A stretch of DNA of 64,000 bases from Bacillus sp. AFS006103 (GTDB lineage: Bacteria > Bacillota > Bacilli > Bacillales > Cytobacillaceae). Shown in pieces: positions 5,542 through 12,512 of this stretch. The stretch spans positions 1 through 64,000 of the forward strand of contig NTXX01000016.1 of NCBI GenBank assembly GCA_002559145.1. The letters are read 5' to 3'. The position numbers and the translations under genes were made by a program. Within the stretch, counting starts at the first letter, position 1, and each line of letters opens with the position of its first letter. The notes under the pieces were generated by a model. It made no database searches and had not been told where the DNA came from. It saw nothing but the letters and a program-made list of their open reading frames with translations.

Positions 5542-7407
5542 ATGATTAATACAAAAAAGGGCATCGATTGGATTATTGAAAGGCTACGGAAAGACCAATC
5601 TCCCGATGGATCTTGGAACTACCCCTTTGAAACAGGGCTGTCAACTGATGCTTATATGATCATTTTATTGCGGACATTGGAATTAAATGATGAAGAATTA
5701 ATTCAAGGCTTGGTTTCAAGGATCTTAAGTAAGCAAGAAAAAAACGGGGCATGGAAACTTTATTATGATGAAGGCGATGGAAACTTGAGTGCAACCGTGG
5801 AAGTTTATTACGCTTTATTGTATTCGGGATATACAAAGAAAGATGACAAACGCTTGCGTGCAGCAAAAAGGTTTATTTTATCCAAAGGGGGCTTAGAAGA
5901 AGTTAGCATATTTACAAAAGTGATGCTTTCTTTAACAGGGCAATATATTTGGCCGGATTTCTCCCCTCTCCCGATTGAATTCATACTCTTACCACACTAC
6001 TTTCCGATTAATTTCTACTCTTTATCCGTATTTGGCCGAGCCAATCTTACTCCAATTATTCTACTTGCTGACAAGAAATTTTTTATTAAGACAAAGAATA
6101 GCCCTAATCTTTCCGAACTGCATATACACCGTAATCAGGATAATTCTTGGTTTCGTTCTTCTGAATATCGCTCCTTATTTTCATTTATCGAGGATGGAGT
6201 GAAAAGATTAATGGGCTTACCCGAGCAGCTTCATCAGCTAGCGATAGAACGAGCCAAAAAGTATATGCTCGACCACCTAGAACCGGATGGCACCTTTTAT
6301 AGTTACTTCAGCAGTACCTTTTTACTGATCTTTGCGCTACTCTCATTAGGGTATAAGAAAACGGATCCTATCATTACAAAAGCCCTGAATGGATTGTTTG
6401 CGATGAAATGTGAAATTAATGGAACCCCTCATATGCAGTATACAACGGCTAATGTCTGGAACACTTCCTTGATTGGTTATTCCCTTCAAGCCGCTGGGGT
6501 TTCAACAGACGATTCAATTGTCGTAGAAGCCAATCGTTATCTGCTAGAGAAGCAGCAGCATAAATTCGGTGATTGGGTCATCCATAATCCAAAGACTTTA
6601 CCTGGAGGGTGGGGCTTTTCCGAGGTAAATACAATGAATCCCGATGTCGATGATACAACTGCCTCACTTCGCTCGCTCTCTAGACTCGTTCCACACGATA
6701 GACATGCCTGGGATCGGGGTCTGGAGTGGCTATTGTCGATGCAAAATGACGATGGCGGCTGGGCGGCGTTTGAAAAAAACACCGATACAAAGCTGTTTGA
6801 ATTCCTTCCACTTGAAAAAGGGGAATTTTTGCTAACTGATCCCTCCTGTGCAGATATTACAGGACGGACCCTGGAATTTTTGGGTAATTATACGAATCTA
6901 TCAAGAGACCACAAGGCCATCCAAAAAGGAGTCAATTGGCTGTTGAAAAATCAATTAATGAACGGTTCCTGGTATGGAAGATGGGGTGTTTGTTATCTAT
7001 ATGGAACGTGGGGAGCCGTAACCGGTTTAGTGGCAGCGGGAATACCTACTGGTCACTCTTCGATTCAAAGGGCTGTTAATTGGTTACTTAGTATTCAAAA
7101 TGGCGATGGCGGTTGGGGAGAGTCATGCCATAGCGATAGGAAAAAAACATACGTGCCCTTACAAGCAAGCACCTTAACCCATACGGGCTGGGCACTCGAT
7201 ACCCTGATATCTACTTCAGAGGAGCCCACTTCTCAAATTCGAAAAGGAATAACCTATTTATTAGATTCACTTGAAAAAGAAGATTGGACCACTGCTTATC
7301 CAAAGGGTCAAGGAATGGCTGGTGCTTTTTACATTCACTATCACAGTTATCGCTACATTTTCCCGCTCATCGCTTTGTCACACTATCAGAAAAAATTCGA
7401 ATCGTAA
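5542..7407 (+). CDS. sqhC: squalene-hopene / tetraprenyl-beta-curcumene cyclase
   Basis: The 621-aa class II terpene cyclase has the catalytic DVDDTTAS motif at residues 368-375 (the Asp acid that protonates the substrate), and several QW repeats that brace the barrel, such as QNDDGGWAAFE and QNGDGGWGES. Bacillus homologues (about 630 aa) make sporulenes or onoceroids from tetraprenyl-beta-curcumene or squalene, lipids that protect spores from oxidants. Sequence alone does not tell the two substrates apart. The start at ATG 5542 follows AAGGAGT. It is divergent from the DUF2515 gene and monocistronic. Confidence 0.88.
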   Translation: MINTKKGIDWIIERLRKDQSPDGSWNYPFETGLSTDAYMIILLRTLELNDEELIQGLVSRILSKQEKNGAWKLYYDEGDGNLSATVEVYYALLYSGYTKKDDKRLRAAKRFILSKGGLEEVSIFTKVMLSLTGQYIWPDFSPLPIEFILLPHYFPINFYSLSVFGRANLTPIILLADKKFFIKTKNSPNLSELHIHRNQDNSWFRSSEYRSLFSFIEDGVKRLMGLPEQLHQLAIERAKKYMLDHLEPDGTFYSYFSSTFLLIFALLSLGYKKTDPIITKALNGLFAMKCEINGTPHMQYTTANVWNTSLIGYSLQAAGVSTDDSIVVEANRYLLEKQQHKFGDWVIHNPKTLPGGWGFSEVNTMNPDVDDTTASLRSLSRLVPHDRHAWDRGLEWLLSMQNDDGGWAAFEKNTDTKLFEFLPLEKGEFLLTDPSCADITGRTLEFLGNYTNLSRDHKAIQKGVNWLLKNQLMNGSWYGRWGVCYLYGTWGAVTGLVAAGIPTGHSSIQRAVNWLLSIQNGDGGWGESCHSDRKKTYVPLQASTLTHTGWALDTLISTSEEPTSQIRKGITYLLDSLEKEDWTTAYPKGQGMAGAFYIHYHSYRYIFPLIALSHYQKKFES

Positions 7408-7413
7408 AAAATG

Positions 7414-7456
7414 AAAAACATCGACGGCAACTGTGTACGTACCGTCGATGTTTTTA
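7414..7456. terminator. bidirectional terminator
   Basis: AAACATCGACGG pairs with CCGTCGATGTTT, flanked by A and T runs; shared by the convergent cyclase and mug genes. Confidence 0.85.
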
Positions 7457-7960
7457 TTCTGCAAGTATTGGGACAAGTCCTCTATAGATATCAATAATCT
7501 CCTCCATCTTCATACGAACCAAACCACTAGAAGATGGTACCACGAAATCAATCACCCCTGGAACCAAGCCATTTATTTGCTTCCCCCACGAAATGACTTT
7601 TACACCACTGTATTGCTGGTAAACTCCTTTTCCAACAAAACAAACGACATTAGGCTTTAACCATTCGATCTTTTTCTTTAAAGTTTCTCTCCCCTCTTTG
7701 TACTCTTCTTTCGTGATCTCATTTGCTGCCTTCGTCGGCCGTGCAACGATATTTGTAAAGCCATATCCTAAATCTAACAGCTTTTCATCCTCACTTGCTT
7801 CAAACTTCCGTGGCGTTAACCCTGCTTCGTGTACTATTTTCCAAAAGCGGTTATTAGGATTGGCATAATGATGACCTACCTCACTCGAACGGATGCTGGG
7901 ATTAAAACCAACAAATAAGATTTTTAAGTTTTCCTTTAGATGGTCATTGATGGGATTCAT
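7454..7960 (-). CDS. mug: G/U(T) mismatch-specific uracil-DNA glycosylase
   Basis: The 168-aa product belongs to the Mug branch of the uracil-DNA glycosylase superfamily, which removes uracil and ethenocytosine opposite guanine. Visible are the motif-1 active-site segment LFVGFNPSIRSSEVGHHYA with Asn, the ANPNNRFWK strand and the second loop region near WGKQINGL and VPSSSGLVR. Length equals E. coli Mug (168 aa). Start ATG 7960 behind AAAAGGGG. Single gene. Confidence 0.87.
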   Translation of the reverse strand: MNPINDHLKENLKILFVGFNPSIRSSEVGHHYANPNNRFWKIVHEAGLTPRKFEASEDEKLLDLGYGFTNIVARPTKAANEITKEEYKEGRETLKKKIEWLKPNVVCFVGKGVYQQYSGVKVISWGKQINGLVPGVIDFVVPSSSGLVRMKMEEIIDIYRGLVPILAE

Positions 7961-8038: not shown

Positions 8039-8072
8039 TTTTCAGTTTTTTTTCAGATTAGTGGACTAAAAT
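8039..8072 (+). promoter_or_regulatory. response-regulator-type direct repeats and -10 box of the redox cassette
   Basis: TTTTCAG at 8039-8045 and again at 8050-8056 (11-bp centre distance), then 10 bp, then TAAAAT (8067-8072). There is no consensus -35; the second repeat sits where it would be. The same arrangement occurs before the response regulator gene at 12444-12477, which suggests that this regulator activates both. Confidence 0.6.
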
Positions 8073-8102
8073 GCTTAAAAAAGGTACAAGGAGGACAAAA
8101 AG

Positions 8103-8720
8103 GTGAACAAAAAATGGAAAAAGTTAATTTCGATGTTGGCTATCCTCATCACGGTAATTTCAATTGGAACCCGCGTGATAGCAGATGAAGGATACGACCG
8201 TGATGACGATGATGATGAAGGATCTGAATATTATCAAGAAGCAAATGAGGATGATGATGAAAACTGGCACGCGCCACAAAATCAAGTCACTAATCTACAA
8301 CCATCAGAATATTGGAATGTCTGGACTCGCGAGGCAAGGAACAACCCCGACAATCCTTTGCCAATTAATGAACCTACTGAGTTAACTGTTCTGGTGGAAG
8401 GTAACGAAACAAGTGTCTTCTTTATCCCAGGGGAAGGACAGTTACTTGTTTCTGTTTATCGTATTTCCGAACTCTTAGGTGCTCGAGTCAAGTTCTATCA
8501 GCAAAGTAAGATAGCAGTCTTACAAAAAGGAGATCTAGAATTAGCCATTAGAGCAGGATCAAACGCAGCGTTTGAAAATAAGATTAAAACACCGATGCCA
8601 ACTCAAGCAACCGCCTATGAGAATTCCATCTATCTCCCTATTTCAGTGGCTGCAAATGCACTTGGCTACCGAATTTCTTTCGATAACACAAAAAGGGCAC
8701 TGGTCTTTCAATCAATTTAA
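8103..8720 (+). CDS. secreted acidic stalk-domain (copper amine oxidase N-like) protein
   Basis: Starts at GTG 8103 behind AAGGAGG. The 205-aa protein has a signal peptide (KKLISMLAILITVISIG, cleavage near RVIADE), then a very acidic Asp/Glu-rich linker at about residues 28-55 (runs of DDDD), and a C-terminal segment from about residue 95 with LLVSVYRISELLGARVKFYQ and SIYLPISVAANALGYRISF, the pattern of the copper-amine-oxidase-like stalk domain. This domain is a structural binding module, not an oxidase. First gene of a four-gene plus-strand operon with the ApbE and cytochrome genes. Its role there is not known; the acidic tract could bind cations. Confidence 0.75.
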   Translation: MNKKWKKLISMLAILITVISIGTRVIADEGYDRDDDDDEGSEYYQEANEDDDENWHAPQNQVTNLQPSEYWNVWTREARNNPDNPLPINEPTELTVLVEGNETSVFFIPGEGQLLVSVYRISELLGARVKFYQQSKIAVLQKGDLELAIRAGSNAAFENKIKTPMPTQATAYENSIYLPISVAANALGYRISFDNTKRALVFQSI

Positions 8721-8735
8721 AGGAGTGTAAACATT

Positions 8736-8987
8736 ATGGCAAAATCTAAAAAATCAAAGTGGCTTATCGGGGTGACAGGTACTGCGCTTTCCGCATTTGT
8801 AATTAGTCAGGTTGGCACGAATCAACAGGGTCAGAACCTGACATCCGATCAATCCATCATTACAAATTCAATGAGCAAGGAGGAAAAGGATTTTGTTCAA
8901 CTAGATTGGTCAAATTATTCGATTTATGGGGATGATGTTGTAACGAAAGGTGTTGAACAAAGTGATCGACAAACAAGTAGATCCTGA
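8736..8987 (+). CDS. small membrane-anchored protein of the redox cassette
   Basis: An 83-aa protein with a lysine-rich N-terminus (MAKSKKSK) followed by one hydrophobic helix (WLIGVTGTALSAFVISQVG) and a hydrophilic tail ending DRQTSRS. No cysteine, so it is not a lipoprotein. It lies 15 nt after the stalk gene with AAAGGAGT before ATG, and its last 26 nt overlap the ApbE gene in another frame. Not recognised as a family. It could be a separate small partner, or the signal-anchor piece of an ApbE protein split by a frameshift, because the ApbE itself has no signal sequence. Confidence 0.65.
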   Translation: MAKSKKSKWLIGVTGTALSAFVISQVGTNQQGQNLTSDQSIITNSMSKEEKDFVQLDWSNYSIYGDDVVTKGVEQSDRQTSRS

Positions 8988-9909
8988 TACATTTGAAACA
9001 TTAACTTTTGACGCTATGAATACCACCTTTTATTTTGTTATTTCTAAATGTAAGATGTCGAATTGGAAAGATGTTATCGAAGGATGGGTCAGGTATGTTG
9101 AAATGGAGTGGTCTCGATTTCAAGGAGGAGACAATGAGTTAGGGCAATTAAATAATTTAGAAATAGGGCAAAAAATGAATTTATCACTGCCGCTTTACGA
9201 TGTCCTACAAAGAGCAGACGATTATCGCCAGAAAACAAACAGTTCGTTTTCGCCCTATTTACTATCACAAATCCAATATCATGGATATCAACTATCTTTT
9301 CCCTTCCCAATGAATGGATTCGTTAAGGAGGAGGTAATTCCTCCGTTGATTGACAGCAAAACCTCTCCCTTTTTGTTTGATCCAAAACAGATTACCGTCA
9401 CCCGGACGTCTGAAGGAAAGGTTGATTTAGGAGGAATCGGGAAAGGATATACCGTTCAAGCAGCTGCAAAATGGTTGAAGCATATTGGTGGGGCTTCAGC
9501 AGGGATGGTTGATGGAGGTGGTGACATGACGGTTTGGTCTGATGGATTAAAGGAATGGAAAATTGGTGTCGCCCATCCACTGCAAAAAAATAGAGAAATC
9601 GCCCAATTTCGCCTTAAAAATGGCAGTATCGCAACTTCAAATGTAATTTATCGGAGTTGGACCAAAGGAAATGAAGTGAAGCATCATATCTTAAATGGAA
9701 AGACTGGTTTTCCTGCTGAGAATCATATAATCCAAGCGACAGTCATTTCAGAAAATTGCCTGGATGCAGAAGTCGGAGCAAAACTTTGTCTCATCGAAGA
9801 AGTGAAAAATATAAAAAGCCAATTAAAAAAAATAAGTTCAGCGTTTACTTATCTTCTTGTAAATGATCAGGGGAAGGTTATCTCAGGTAGATTGGAGGAA
9901 TTGATGTGA
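8962..9909 (+). CDS. FAD:protein FMN transferase (ApbE family)
   Basis: ApbE proteins use FAD to attach FMN covalently to a Thr/Ser of extracytoplasmic redox proteins. Family signatures are present: FDAMNTTFYFV at the start, GKVDLGGIGKGYTVQAAA, GMVDGGGDMTVW, GSIATSNV and HHILNGKTGFPA. GTG 8962 (315 aa) is preferred, with AAAGG 11 bases upstream; GTG 8950 and TTG 8953 are alternatives. There is no signal peptide or lipobox, unusual for ApbE. Its stop overlaps the next start (GTGA), so translation is coupled. No obvious FMN acceptor with a D-x-x-[ST]-G-A-[ST] motif is encoded in the operon. Confidence 0.87.
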   Translation: MIDKQVDPDTFETLTFDAMNTTFYFVISKCKMSNWKDVIEGWVRYVEMEWSRFQGGDNELGQLNNLEIGQKMNLSLPLYDVLQRADDYRQKTNSSFSPYLLSQIQYHGYQLSFPFPMNGFVKEEVIPPLIDSKTSPFLFDPKQITVTRTSEGKVDLGGIGKGYTVQAAAKWLKHIGGASAGMVDGGGDMTVWSDGLKEWKIGVAHPLQKNREIAQFRLKNGSIATSNVIYRSWTKGNEVKHHILNGKTGFPAENHIIQATVISENCLDAEVGAKLCLIEEVKNIKSQLKKISSAFTYLLVNDQGKVISGRLEELM

Positions 9910-10469
9910 CCGAATTATTTTCTTCTTGGACATTAATCCGTACGTCAGGATTCTTGGGGTACTACTTCCTAACCCTATCCCTTTCTCTTGGATTAGTTCA
10001 ATCATTGTCAAAACTGAAGAAAAAGAAAGCAATGCTCCTTTCGTTACACCAGAAAAGCAGCTGGTATGGATTGCTTACGATCATCTTTCATATCATCTTA
10101 ATTTGGCAGGATCAATTTGTTCCCTACTCACTAGATGAGCTATTCATCCCTTTTCATGCCGAAAACGAATCGTTATTTTCCGCATTGGGAACACTCTCAT
10201 TTTATCTGTTTTTCCTTGTCGCACTATCCTCCGATTTTTTCATGAAGAAATTGGGGTTTAAGAAGTGGAAGTATATTCATTTTGCCGTGTTCCCTGCTTG
10301 GATTTTAATGCTTATCCATGGACTTGCGATTGGGACGGATTCAAGTGAACCGTGGGCGTTATTTATTTACTCTTTTTCGAGCCTTCTAATGATCGTCCTA
10401 TTGTTTATTAGGATCACCGATAATGCTGAGAAACATCAAAGCTCCAGCCGCAAAAATCTTAAATGTTAA
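9906..10469 (+). CDS. ferric-reductase-like transmembrane heme protein
   Basis: A 187-aa integral membrane protein with about five helices. Histidines fall in pairs at helix positions expected for heme ligands of the YedZ/ferric-reductase domain: LHQKSSWYGLLTIIFHIIL and YIHFAVFPAWILMLIHGLA. The family passes electrons across the membrane, in this context probably between the membrane pool and a flavinylated protein outside. GTG 9906 overlaps the ApbE stop by four bases (GTGA). Last gene of the cassette, followed by a terminator. No NAD- or FAD-binding domain is fused. Confidence 0.8.
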   Translation: MTELFSSWTLIRTSGFLGYYFLTLSLSLGLVQSLSKLKKKKAMLLSLHQKSSWYGLLTIIFHIILIWQDQFVPYSLDELFIPFHAENESLFSALGTLSFYLFFLVALSSDFFMKKLGFKKWKYIHFAVFPAWILMLIHGLAIGTDSSEPWALFIYSFSSLLMIVLLFIRITDNAEKHQSSSRKNLKC

Positions 10470-10470
10470 T

Positions 10471-10504
10471 AAACGTCAGCTCTGTAAGCTGGCGTTTATC
10501 TTTT
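10471..10504. terminator. bidirectional terminator
   Basis: AAACGTCAGCT pairs with AGCTGGCGTTT, then TATCTTTTAT; lies between the redox cassette and the convergent histidine kinase gene. Confidence 0.8.
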
Positions 10505-11734
10505 ATCCTTAAAAATCACCGTAAACACGGTCCCCTCTCCTTCATTACTGGCAGCATATATTTCACCGCCATGGGCCTTAACAATGGATTGAGCAATCGA
10601 AAGACCCAAACCTGACCCACCTTTTTCCCTTGACAAATCGGCACGATAAAACCGGTCGAAAATAAAAGGCAGGTCTTTGGATGAGATCCCGCAGCCTGTA
10701 TCACTAACAGTTAATATTTTCACCCCATTCTCTGAATGTAAAGATAGGATAACCTTACCTTCCGTTGTATACCTTATGGCATTATCTAGCAAAATATATA
10801 GTAATTGTTGAACTCTTACTTCATCACAGATAAAAGTGATATCCGTTTTGATATTTTGTTCAAATTGAATACTTTCCGGTGCAATCCTTGAGAACTTTTT
10901 AAAAACGATCATTAATAAGCCGGATAGGTTTACCTCTTTCATCTCCAAGCTTAATTGGTCATTATCACTTCTTGCTAAAAATAAAAGATTATTGATTAGA
11001 CTGCTCATAAGATATGCTTCTGTTTTGACATCTTCCAGAACCTCTTGTCCGTAAGAACTTAAATTTTCTTTTTCTTCCCTCATCAATACATCAACGGAGC
11101 TATAAAAAATACTTAGCGGAGTTCTTATTTCATGAGAAGCGTCTGAAACAAATTTTTCTTGTTTATGAAAGGCATTTGTGATTGGTTTCATTGCTTGCCC
11201 TGCAAAATAATAGCCTAAGCCTGCAAATAACAAGCTAAAAAGTAAGGTTAAGCCAATGAGAGTCCATGTGATATTTTGAATCAGGTGCTTTTCGCTTGAA
11301 ATATTCATCCCAAGAATAACAAAACCGTACCGGTTATCATCGAGTGACAGAGGTTGTTTAACTAAGAGAAGATGTTCCTGTTTCCACTCCACTCTTTCTG
11401 TAAATGACTTTCCTTTTGTCAGCATATTTTCTTCTATCCAACTAGAGAGGGATGGAAGTGATTCCTCTCCATAAATCAGTTCAGCCTGTCGATTGTATAC
11501 GTAATAAAATATCGCTCGGTTTGGATCATTCTCTAACCTATGATGTTTTTTTTCATAGAGCTCCTCGATAAAGTCCGATTTTTCTCTATTAAAATAAACA
11601 TTTATTTCATCTAATTCTTTTTCATTTATTTCATCTGAGATTAATAAATAAAGTAAGCCAATAAATGATACAAGTACACAAAGGAGCGATAAGGAATAGA
11701 GTATGGTTAACTTTGCTTTCACTTGGCTAAACAT
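10496..11734 (-). CDS. sensor histidine kinase of the redox-cassette two-component system
   Basis: 412 aa. TM1 is about residues 8-32, an extracytoplasmic sensor loop of about 120 residues follows, TM2 is about 152-177. The HisKA box FVSDASHEIRTPLS puts the phosphoacceptor at His201. The HATPase region has DNAIRYT, DTGCGIS, FDRFYRAD and GGSGLGLSIA (N, G1, F and G2 boxes). The sensor loop has no recognisable fold. The gene overlaps the upstream response regulator by 8 nt. It is convergent with the cassette at 8103-10469, and matching promoter repeats suggest that cassette is its target. Confidence 0.9.
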   Translation of the reverse strand: MFSQVKAKLTILYSLSLLCVLVSFIGLLYLLISDEINEKELDEINVYFNREKSDFIEELYEKKHHRLENDPNRAIFYYVYNRQAELIYGEESLPSLSSWIEENMLTKGKSFTERVEWKQEHLLLVKQPLSLDDNRYGFVILGMNISSEKHLIQNITWTLIGLTLLFSLLFAGLGYYFAGQAMKPITNAFHKQEKFVSDASHEIRTPLSIFYSSVDVLMREEKENLSSYGQEVLEDVKTEAYLMSSLINNLLFLARSDNDQLSLEMKEVNLSGLLMIVFKKFSRIAPESIQFEQNIKTDITFICDEVRVQQLLYILLDNAIRYTTEGKVILSLHSENGVKILTVSDTGCGISSKDLPFIFDRFYRADLSREKGGSGLGLSIAQSIVKAHGGEIYAASNEGEGTVFTVIFKDKR

Positions 11735-12404
11735 CGGAATGTCTCACTTTATAACCGATTCCGCGAATATTTTGAATTAACGATGGTCCCCCCGGCAAAT
11801 CTATCTTTTTTCGAACTAATTTTACCAATGCATCCAAGGCATTATCAGAGACTTCTGTATCATAGCCCCACAGTTTTTCAAACAATAGCTCTCTTGTCAG
11901 TACTTGATTATGGTTTCGAAATAATAGTTCTAAAAGATGGTATTCTTTTTTTGTTAATTCAATAATGGAATCGTTTCTTTTTAAGACATGCGTATTTAGG
12001 TTAAGAGTTAAATCAGCGAGAGTGATTACTTCTTCTAGTGGTTTTTCTTTTCTGCGGCTAATCGCTCTTATCCGTGCTAATAACTCATTCAATTCAAACG
12101 GTTTAACAATATAATCATCGGCACCTGAATCAAGACCTGCGATGATATCTTGATTGGCATCCTTCGCGGTTACAAATAATATTCCACTCTGGATTCCTTT
12201 TTGACGCAGTCTTTTACAAACGGTTAAACCATCTTGTCCCGGCATCATCCAATCCAAAATAATGACATCGTAAGTAAGAAGGCAGGCATTGTCATAAGCT
12301 TCCTTCCCACTCTTTACCCAATCAACGCGGTGAAATTCCTTTTGAAGTAAGTGGGCCACTAATTTCCCAAGTCGGACATCATCCTCAGCCAGTAATATAT
12401 TCAC
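11727..12404 (-). CDS. OmpR/PhoB-family response regulator
   Basis: Start GTG 12404 (AAGGGG with eight-base spacing; an earlier GTG overlaps the ribosome site), 225 aa. The receiver domain has the acidic pair AEDD, phospho-acceptor Asp51 in IILDWMMPG, and Lys in DDYIVKPFELNELL. The C-terminal winged helix has LTKKEYHLLELLF and VRKKIDLPGGPSLIQNIRGIGYKV. Members bind tandem repeats about 11 bp apart, which is what lies in front of this gene (12460-12477) and of the redox cassette. Autoregulation is therefore likely. Confidence 0.9.
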   Translation of the reverse strand: MNILLAEDDVRLGKLVAHLLQKEFHRVDWVKSGKEAYDNACLLTYDVIILDWMMPGQDGLTVCKRLRQKGIQSGILFVTAKDANQDIIAGLDSGADDYIVKPFELNELLARIRAISRRKEKPLEEVITLADLTLNLNTHVLKRNDSIIELTKKEYHLLELLFRNHNQVLTRELLFEKLWGYDTEVSDNALDALVKLVRKKIDLPGGPSLIQNIRGIGYKVRHSDV

Positions 12405-12443
12405 ACGCTCCACCCCTTTTTCAAAAAAATTCCTTTTGCTATT

Positions 12444-12477
12444 ATCATAGCAAGCTTTTCTGAAAAAAGAGTGAAAA
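12444..12477 (-). promoter_or_regulatory. response-regulator-type direct repeats and -10 box (autoregulation)
   Basis: On the minus strand TTTTCAC (12477-12471) and TTTTCAG (12466-12460), 11 bp apart, then exactly 10 bp, then TATGAT (12449-12444). Geometry is identical to that at 8039-8072. No good -35 hexamer. Confidence 0.6.
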
Positions 12478-12512
12478 ATCCATGAACGTATTGAGAGGAA
12501 AGAATAATTAAC

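Follow-up and report, generated by a model that had tools for sequence, protein, structure and literature searches.

A probable regulon in Neobacillus joining a two-component system to an MsrQ-like ApbE cassette with a candidate C-terminal flavin tag

What does a two-component system (TCS) control when it stands opposite a redox cassette whose promoter is laid out like its own? This question is raised by a locus in the 5.17-Mb genome of Bacillus sp. AFS006103 (a soil bacterium, its genus treated here as Neobacillus), in which a response regulator gene and a sensor kinase gene converge on four genes encoding a stalk protein, a small membrane-anchored protein, an ApbE-family protein and a Ferric_reduct/MsrQ-like membrane protein (FRD). 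All positions are those of the window, the 64,000-nucleotide stretch of contig NTXX01000016.1 that was analysed. Judging from the sequence, we find it probable that the locus is a self-contained regulon, in which the TCS controls an outlet for electrons of the MsrQ-like flavin/heme kind, whose anchor carries a flavin tag at its C-terminus.

In front of the cassette, the plus strand reads TTTTCAG-N4-TTTTCAG-N10-TAAAAT (8039–8072), and in front of the regulator gene the minus strand reads TTTTCAC-N4-TTTTCAG-N10-TATGAT (12,444–12,477). Both sites were read directly and found again with a pattern search, which bore out to the base the repeats and the -10 spacing reported in a preliminary description of this DNA. 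That description called the two promoters identical in architecture, which is true of the geometry but not of every letter (TTTTCAG versus TTTTCAC, TAAAAT versus TATGAT). It also reported no -35 box, and among the sigma-70-type -35/-10 pairs listed by a promoter scan none involves either of the two -10 hexamers. The geometry is, as it said, of PhoB type, with 11-bp direct repeats (heptamer-N4-heptamer, then N10 to the -10) covering the -35 region. The regulator promoter also has an extended -10, TGC preceding TATGAT. A weaker third heptamer, CGTTCAT (12,482–12,488, minus strand; TGTTCAC in several relatives), lies 11 bp upstream of the regulator operator, and most relatives have such a heptamer 11 bp farther upstream of the paired repeats, TGTTCAC-like before the regulator gene and TTACCAT-like before the stalk gene. 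We propose that the kinase and the PhoB-type regulator would act both on their own promoter and on the one that serves the four cassette genes opposite. The regulator would bind a tandem of two and probably three heptamers, spaced by 11 bp and standing in for a -35 element, much like PhoB at a pho box.

The pattern TTTTCAN5TTTTCAGN10TANNNT was scanned in 60 congeneric genomes (G000–G058 and G100), with the reversed pattern as control. Of its 24 matches, 20 lay at the cassette/TCS locus, as assigned by coordinates or, in G100, by the distance of 4.4 kb between its two matches. In this genus the pattern is essentially a mark of this locus alone, and the scan pointed to no other regulon members, the matches elsewhere being no more numerous than those of the reversed pattern (4 versus 4). 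With at most one mismatch, TTTTCA-N5-TTTTCA was present in 19/20 stalk-gene upstream regions and 16/19 regulator upstream regions, counts that include three outgroup loci and the degenerate locus of G020. The sole miss before a stalk gene (L112) has two mismatches; those before regulator genes were two loci with the regulator inside the cassette operon, plus L103. The repeats recur before orthologous operons, at cassette and regulator genes across the Neobacillus clade; their absence there, which the preliminary description had named as a refutation, was not observed. A looser operator pattern gave a third match in one genome (G000:C5:56205-56238, minus strand), about 60 bp before a gene for a DUF2231 membrane protein (L115:5662-6144, minus strand; PF09990, E 2e-17). 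This site was also seen in G048 and G053, and the DUF2231 ortholog is present in only 3/24 genomes; in an Exiguobacterium TCS operon, a DUF2231 gene follows the kinase gene (L146:2217-2630). The DUF2231 gene is a possible third member of the regulon.

The linkage of the two units is also conserved. An uninterrupted regulator ortholog (66–100% identity) with an adjoining cassette was found in 15 of 60 genomes of the genus (G000–G059), and neither a regulator nor a cassette ortholog in 42. The TCS and the cassette decay jointly in three congeners, G012, G014 and G020 (L107, L109 and L110). G012 has interruptions in the regulator, in the kinase and in FRD; G014 has lost the cassette and retains only truncated forms of the regulator and the kinase; in G020 the regulator, kinase and cassette are all degenerate. 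We also noted that in G052 (L100) the ApbE frame alone is interrupted, while the other genes look whole. In G099 and G075, which belong to two other families, the genes form a single run, stalk-small protein-ApbE-FRD-regulator-kinase, with a site only at its head. There, a gene for a His-paired cytochrome-b-like membrane protein, with sub-threshold Pfam matches only, follows the kinase gene (L111:3227-3766 and L113:2865-3332, both minus strand). Such a gene also adjoins the degenerate cassette of G020 (L110, about 7023-7571), whereas a search of further Neobacillus cassette loci showed none. In the fetched flanks of ApbE loci, a TCS was present in 13/34 loci with an FRD gene after apbE versus 5/46 without a following FRD gene, and 3 of these 5 have an FRD gene elsewhere.

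To look beyond the genus, we used a later set of 30 ApbE loci fetched from 299 genomes of class Bacilli, of which 28 were retained after dropping the query (L222) and the window itself (L228). The set is not fully independent of the earlier loci. L250 is the locus of genome G073, which had been examined before and whose open reading frame (ORF) before apbE encodes a DUF2271 protein; seven of the 28 resemble L146 in being of an Exiguobacterium type; L223 is related to the query, and L229 and L237 to L156. A regulator gene lies at most 1.5 kb away in 15/28 loci, 7 of them Exiguobacterium-type. A letter-free scan for two similar heptamers 11 bp apart with TAnnnT 10 bp on, applied to 23 of the 28 loci (five left out), gave 15 matches versus 1.15 expected; the repeats were TTTTCA-type in 11 loci and TTTCAG-type in one more. 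A site matrix built from 26 Neobacillus sites only was run on 24 of the 28 loci, four Exiguobacterium-type loci being left out. It found sites of at least 12 bits in 16/24 loci and 8/13 families (2/960 resampled sequences, 0.002), and of at least 14 bits in 15/24 loci (0/960). In 10 of the 16 loci, 25–42 bases separate the end of the site from the earliest start codon of the leading cassette ORF; in three the start, as picked mechanically, abuts or falls within the site, and three have no fixed start. A diverged form, TCATCAG-N4-TTGTCAG-N10-TACAGT, was seen in L233 and L238 and, weaker, in L248, all Exiguobacterium-type. Separately, a Bacillota metagenome-assembled genome has ATTTCAG-N4-ATTTCAG-N10-TATAGT (L150:226-259) before a small protein-ApbE-FRD-regulator-kinase run, the geometry being kept and both half-sites altered in step. 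The sequence evidence supports regulation by the TCS of both its own and the cassette promoter.

What the cassette might do is suggested by its small protein. This 83-residue product (8736–8987, plus strand), a proposed ApbE substrate, has a single N-terminal membrane segment and found no match among Pfam or NCBIfam models. An alignment of 15 sequences (A2) showed conservation of the N-terminal KW..G helix, of LDW and of a C-terminal [T/S]-x-R-[S/T], the latter kept down to 20% overall identity. The final seven residues, D-R-Q-T-S-R-S (codons 8964–8984, plus strand), fit D-x-x-[S/T]-x-x-[S/T]; close kin have D/E-x-x-[T/S]-R-R-[S/T], with D or E first in 15/15 aligned sequences. The ApbE target is given as [S/T]GA[S/T] in passages of an eLife paper and as D-x-x-[S/T]-G-A-[S/T] in passages of a review, according to which seven residues suffice and flavin tags at a protein terminus work well with ApbE (PMC12052999). 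The window's tag matches this target in length, in its Asp and in Ser/Thr at the fourth and last places, but not in G-A.

The frequency of such endings was determined in two sets of loci. The discovery set, the best 80 of 543 candidate loci, included Neobacillus loci examined earlier and contained 34 named-genome loci with an FRD gene after apbE, 33 of them with an upstream ORF. With the expression [ST]-x-[AGSRH]-[ST], no more than 4 residues from the end and written after viewing this set, a tag was present in 27/33, compared with 33/736 mechanical control ORFs; five actinobacterial loci had the canonical TGAS near the end. In the later set, where the membrane ORF ending at apbE was chosen (ranked second behind the stalk ORF in L226, L230 and L243), the tag was found in 27/28 loci and all 13 families, 2.96 being expected from shuffled tails; without L250, the figures were 26/27 loci and 12 families. 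Endings included TRAS, TRRS, TRGS, SRAS, THAS, THGS, SRHS and SHSK, and the seven Exiguobacterium-type tags have one extra residue, with the Asp present. Lys and Arg were more numerous before the helix than after it in 23/28 small proteins (4 ties, 1 reversed), which predicts that the C-terminus lies outside the membrane. In Neobacillus sp. OS1-33 (L155, 4588-6410), we also came across a second type of ApbE-FRD cassette, with an ApbE about 29% identical and a small protein ending in D-T-T-T-G-G-T, before which a scan found no site of the operator geometry.

The ApbE-family protein (8962–9909, plus strand; GTG start at 8962 preferred, 8950 possible) matched PF02424 above cut-off (E 7.3e-38), and its catalytic H242 and S226 are invariant in a further alignment (A1), the His/Ser region and GGD motifs being kept. 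No other protein of the genome matches PF02424, and the FMN_bind, DUF2271, DUF3570 and NqrB/RnfD families have no match there, flavodoxin-like and other substrate types not having been searched. An FMN_bind protein is encoded in 7/19 cassette-bearing genomes, each time about 1 kb or less from a second apbE. The FRD protein (9906–10,469, plus strand; PF01794, E 1.1e-8, above cut-off) contains two His pairs, H-x13-H and H-x12-H, conserved in 18/19 aligned rows, the remaining one (L107) being interrupted. The product of the first cassette gene (8103–8720, plus strand; GTG start) is an Asp-rich protein with a Cu_amine_oxidN1 (stalk) domain (PF07833, E 9.3e-16, and orthologs), exported as judged by eye.

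We infer from these features a scheme in which the regulator binds and activates both promoters and the diheme FRD/MsrQ-like protein would carry electrons across the membrane. The one-helix anchor would bear flavin mononucleotide (FMN) on its C-terminal Ser, attached by the cassette ApbE at D-x-x-T-x-R-S, probably while the tail is still in the cytosol, and the exported stalk protein would hold or present an outside acceptor, probably a metal ion. The broader proposition, to which we incline with somewhat less assurance, is that these proteins represent a widespread and so far unlisted class of ApbE substrates, occurring in Bacillota, Chloroflexota and Actinobacteriota. They would be membrane anchors of a single helix whose disordered tether carries FMN on a Ser/Thr at the last residue or beside it, served by a cytosolic Lys-type ApbE and an MsrQ-like heme partner and, in many Bacilli, placed under an OmpR-type TCS with an ancient TTTTCA-N5-TTTTCA operator. 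If so, a helix and a string with a tag on the last residue would suffice for a flavin electron carrier, and certain flavoproteins of the extracytosolic side would receive their label before export. The candidate class would have a short signature at its end, found beside ApbE in 13/13 Bacilli families sampled (12 without L250). The operator would offer a handle on the inducing conditions, with one regulator, two promoters and a site recognisable across families.

Several observations weigh against this scheme. On the side of regulation, the regulator site of L103 is poor (3 mismatches), the cassette of G068 has no adjoining TCS, and 8/24 later loci lack a site of at least 12 bits (L231, L233, L234, L235, L238, L242, L248 and L250). 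On the side of the tag, it is missing from 6/33 discovery loci (L159, L161, L167, L168, L171 and L185) and from one later locus (L231); the first Asp/Glu is present in only 4/19 exactly terminal tags of the later set, the motif's Asp being of minor effect according to the passages on it in the review (PMC12052999). The middle residues (RR, RA, HA, HS) differ from the GA that was tested, and passages of the same review report that G-to-A and A-to-V changes in the motif lowered labelling to about 50%. The enzyme raises two further difficulties. In passages on E. coli ApbE (Ftp), one of the Mg-dependent enzymes, the ligands of metal site 1 are D280 and T284 (PMC4767422); at the corresponding positions, matched by alignment and by the D-x-x-x-T spacing, the window protein has E270 (Asp in some kin) and K274. 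Without the Thr ligand, the enzyme may therefore work slowly, depend on a different metal or have some other function. Besides, no N-terminal hydrophobic segment was visible, by eye and without a predictor, in this ApbE or in most cassette-type ApbEs, so that, with the C-terminus of the small protein predicted outside, modification would have to precede translocation. Doubt is best founded on this topology, which puts enzyme and tail on opposite sides of the membrane, on the lack of a metal ligand and on the change in G-A.

The strongest alternative keeps the regulation as described and makes the ApbE-like protein a non-transferase, i.e. a cytosolic flavin subunit that binds flavin adenine dinucleotide (FAD) and feeds the hemes, with a structural small protein whose tail docks on it. 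In its favor, Lys occupies the Thr position in 42/45 readable cassette-type ApbE rows, three Chloroflexi having Thr, as opposed to Thr in 7/8 hand-picked ApbEs without a following FRD gene, the eighth of which (L182) has one just upstream. In this comparison the mis-picked ORFs L160 and L181, among 28 discovery rows, were not counted, 18 of the 28 later loci were used, and L245 has no FRD gene in view. The absence of a visible signal peptide, and of a FAD/NAD domain in the FRD protein itself, would also fit such a role. Against it stand the retained catalytic His region and GGD motifs, and the five actinobacterial Lys-type members with TGAS partners, which are hard to explain if no flavin is transferred. 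We consider this alternative unlikely and retain flavin transfer to the tag.

Which protein would bind the repeats is another matter. The regulator (11,727–12,413, minus strand) has the receiver and winged-helix domains expected of OmpR/PhoB response regulators (PF00072 and PF00486), with orthologs in the relatives. A recognition helix of the type N-x-[LVI]-[DE]-A-x-[VI]-[KR] was found in 16/19 cassette-adjacent regulators read (the exceptions being L113, L154 and L157). This common helix is only supportive, because a paralog has part of it. The repeats could instead be bound by another OmpR-family protein, either that 52%-identical paralog (G000:C31), whose helix, IDATVKLIRKK, is related, or a PhoP/ResD-type regulator, the adjoining TCS being one target only. 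That G068 retains a variant site without an adjoining TCS fits this idea. However, the site occurs within the genus essentially only at this locus, paralog-bearing genomes without the TCS, such as G001, G016 and G032, gave no pattern match, and the repeats were absent from three paralog upstream regions read on the right strand. We therefore find it quite improbable and keep the adjoining regulator as the candidate binder. Assignment to a CssR/CutR-type secretion-stress regulon was rejected: a TTTTCA-like CssR repeat, which had suggested it, was described in none of the papers listed, the CutR site, published as TAWATAAA in passages of PMC12802291, is different, and the outside loop of the kinase, as read from the sequence, is acidic and lacks Cys. 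A little less probable even than another binder of the repeats is a by-product origin of the C-terminal [S/T]xx[S/T], without a modification site, from S/T-rich disordered tails or from overlap with the apbE start codon, for although many tails are of low complexity and the Neobacillus tag codons overlap a GTG start kept in 16/16 rows (with ATGA overlaps elsewhere), composition-matched shuffles gave 2.96 tags versus 27/28 observed, the last codons vary (TCA, TCT, TCC, TCG, ACA) and the genes do not overlap in several loci.

A programmed frameshift anchoring ApbE via the small protein had also been considered, because the two genes overlap and ApbE lacks a signal peptide. It was dropped because of ApbE's own GTG start at 8962, kept in 16/16 rows, and in other families the two genes abut or stand apart, which also speaks against it. 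AGGTG- or AGGAG-like letters often precede this start, GGAGGTG being present in L101 and L102 only.

The rest of the locus can be described briefly. The kinase gene (10,496–11,734, minus strand) encodes HisKA and HATPase_c domains and, by eye, two membrane segments with a loop outside, and a terminator-like hairpin (10,469–10,499, no strand) divides the convergent operons. Upstream of the cassette are a large ORF read by eye, without a family search, as a squalene-hopene cyclase (5542–7407, plus strand) and a divergent gene for a Mug-like uracil/thymine DNA glycosylase (7454–7960; PF03167). Both ORFs adjoin most Neobacillus cassette loci.

How does this locus compare with known systems? For the operator, the closest likeness is the pho box. 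The E. coli phoA promoter has the same 7-N4-7 arrangement followed by 10 bp to the -10. According to passages of PMC3978041 and PMC3348028, the binding site of PhoB is a pair of 11-bp direct repeats overlapping the -35, and direct repeats of 11 bp over this region are what is shared; the likeness is one of geometry only, the letters here being TTTTCA-type, the regulator another one and the regulon, within the genus, a dedicated one of two promoters. For the tag, the artificial flavin-tag (passages of PMC12052999) is also a short motif at a protein terminus, modified there by ApbE, whereas the present one is natural, stands at or next to the last residue and has R/H/K and A/G/S/R in place of G-A. 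The G073 cassette (L116/L250) has the same gene order, DUF2271-ApbE-FRD, with a DUF2271 protein, a member of a proven ApbE substrate family in the literature passages found, in the place of the small protein. It differs in that this protein has no [S/T]GA[S/T] and ends in SSQGS, and no TTTTCA-type site was found there.

The preliminary description knew of no described system with this gene set. This is right in detail, since titles, abstracts and passages of the open-access literature, with few subscription papers covered, yielded neither the gene set nor an ApbE substrate modified at a C-terminal tail; yet the cassette resembles the known "MsrQ-like flavinylation system" (passages of PMC8238504). 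In those systems (Meheust et al. 2021, PMC8238504; Huang et al. 2024, PMC11334425), as the passages found describe them, apbE also adjoins a gene for a PF01794 diheme membrane protein, and electrons have been proposed to pass across the membrane to an extracytosolic partner that ApbE flavinylates. The present cassette has the PF01794 gene in the apbE cluster, but no FMN_bind, DUF2271 or DUF3570 partner and, by eye, no signal peptide or lipidation on ApbE; its partner is instead a one-helix protein tagged at the terminus, and it comes with a stalk protein and a TCS opposite. For a cluster to be retained in the 2021 survey, according to the passages found, one of four target genes had to encode a signal peptide or a lipidation site (PMC8238504), and the window cassette should therefore fall outside it. 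Because it fails this signal-peptide rule and lacks any known substrate domain, we do not count it as a member. Its FRD and ApbE proteins nevertheless relate it to the MsrQ-like systems, and from sequence it appears to work like them.

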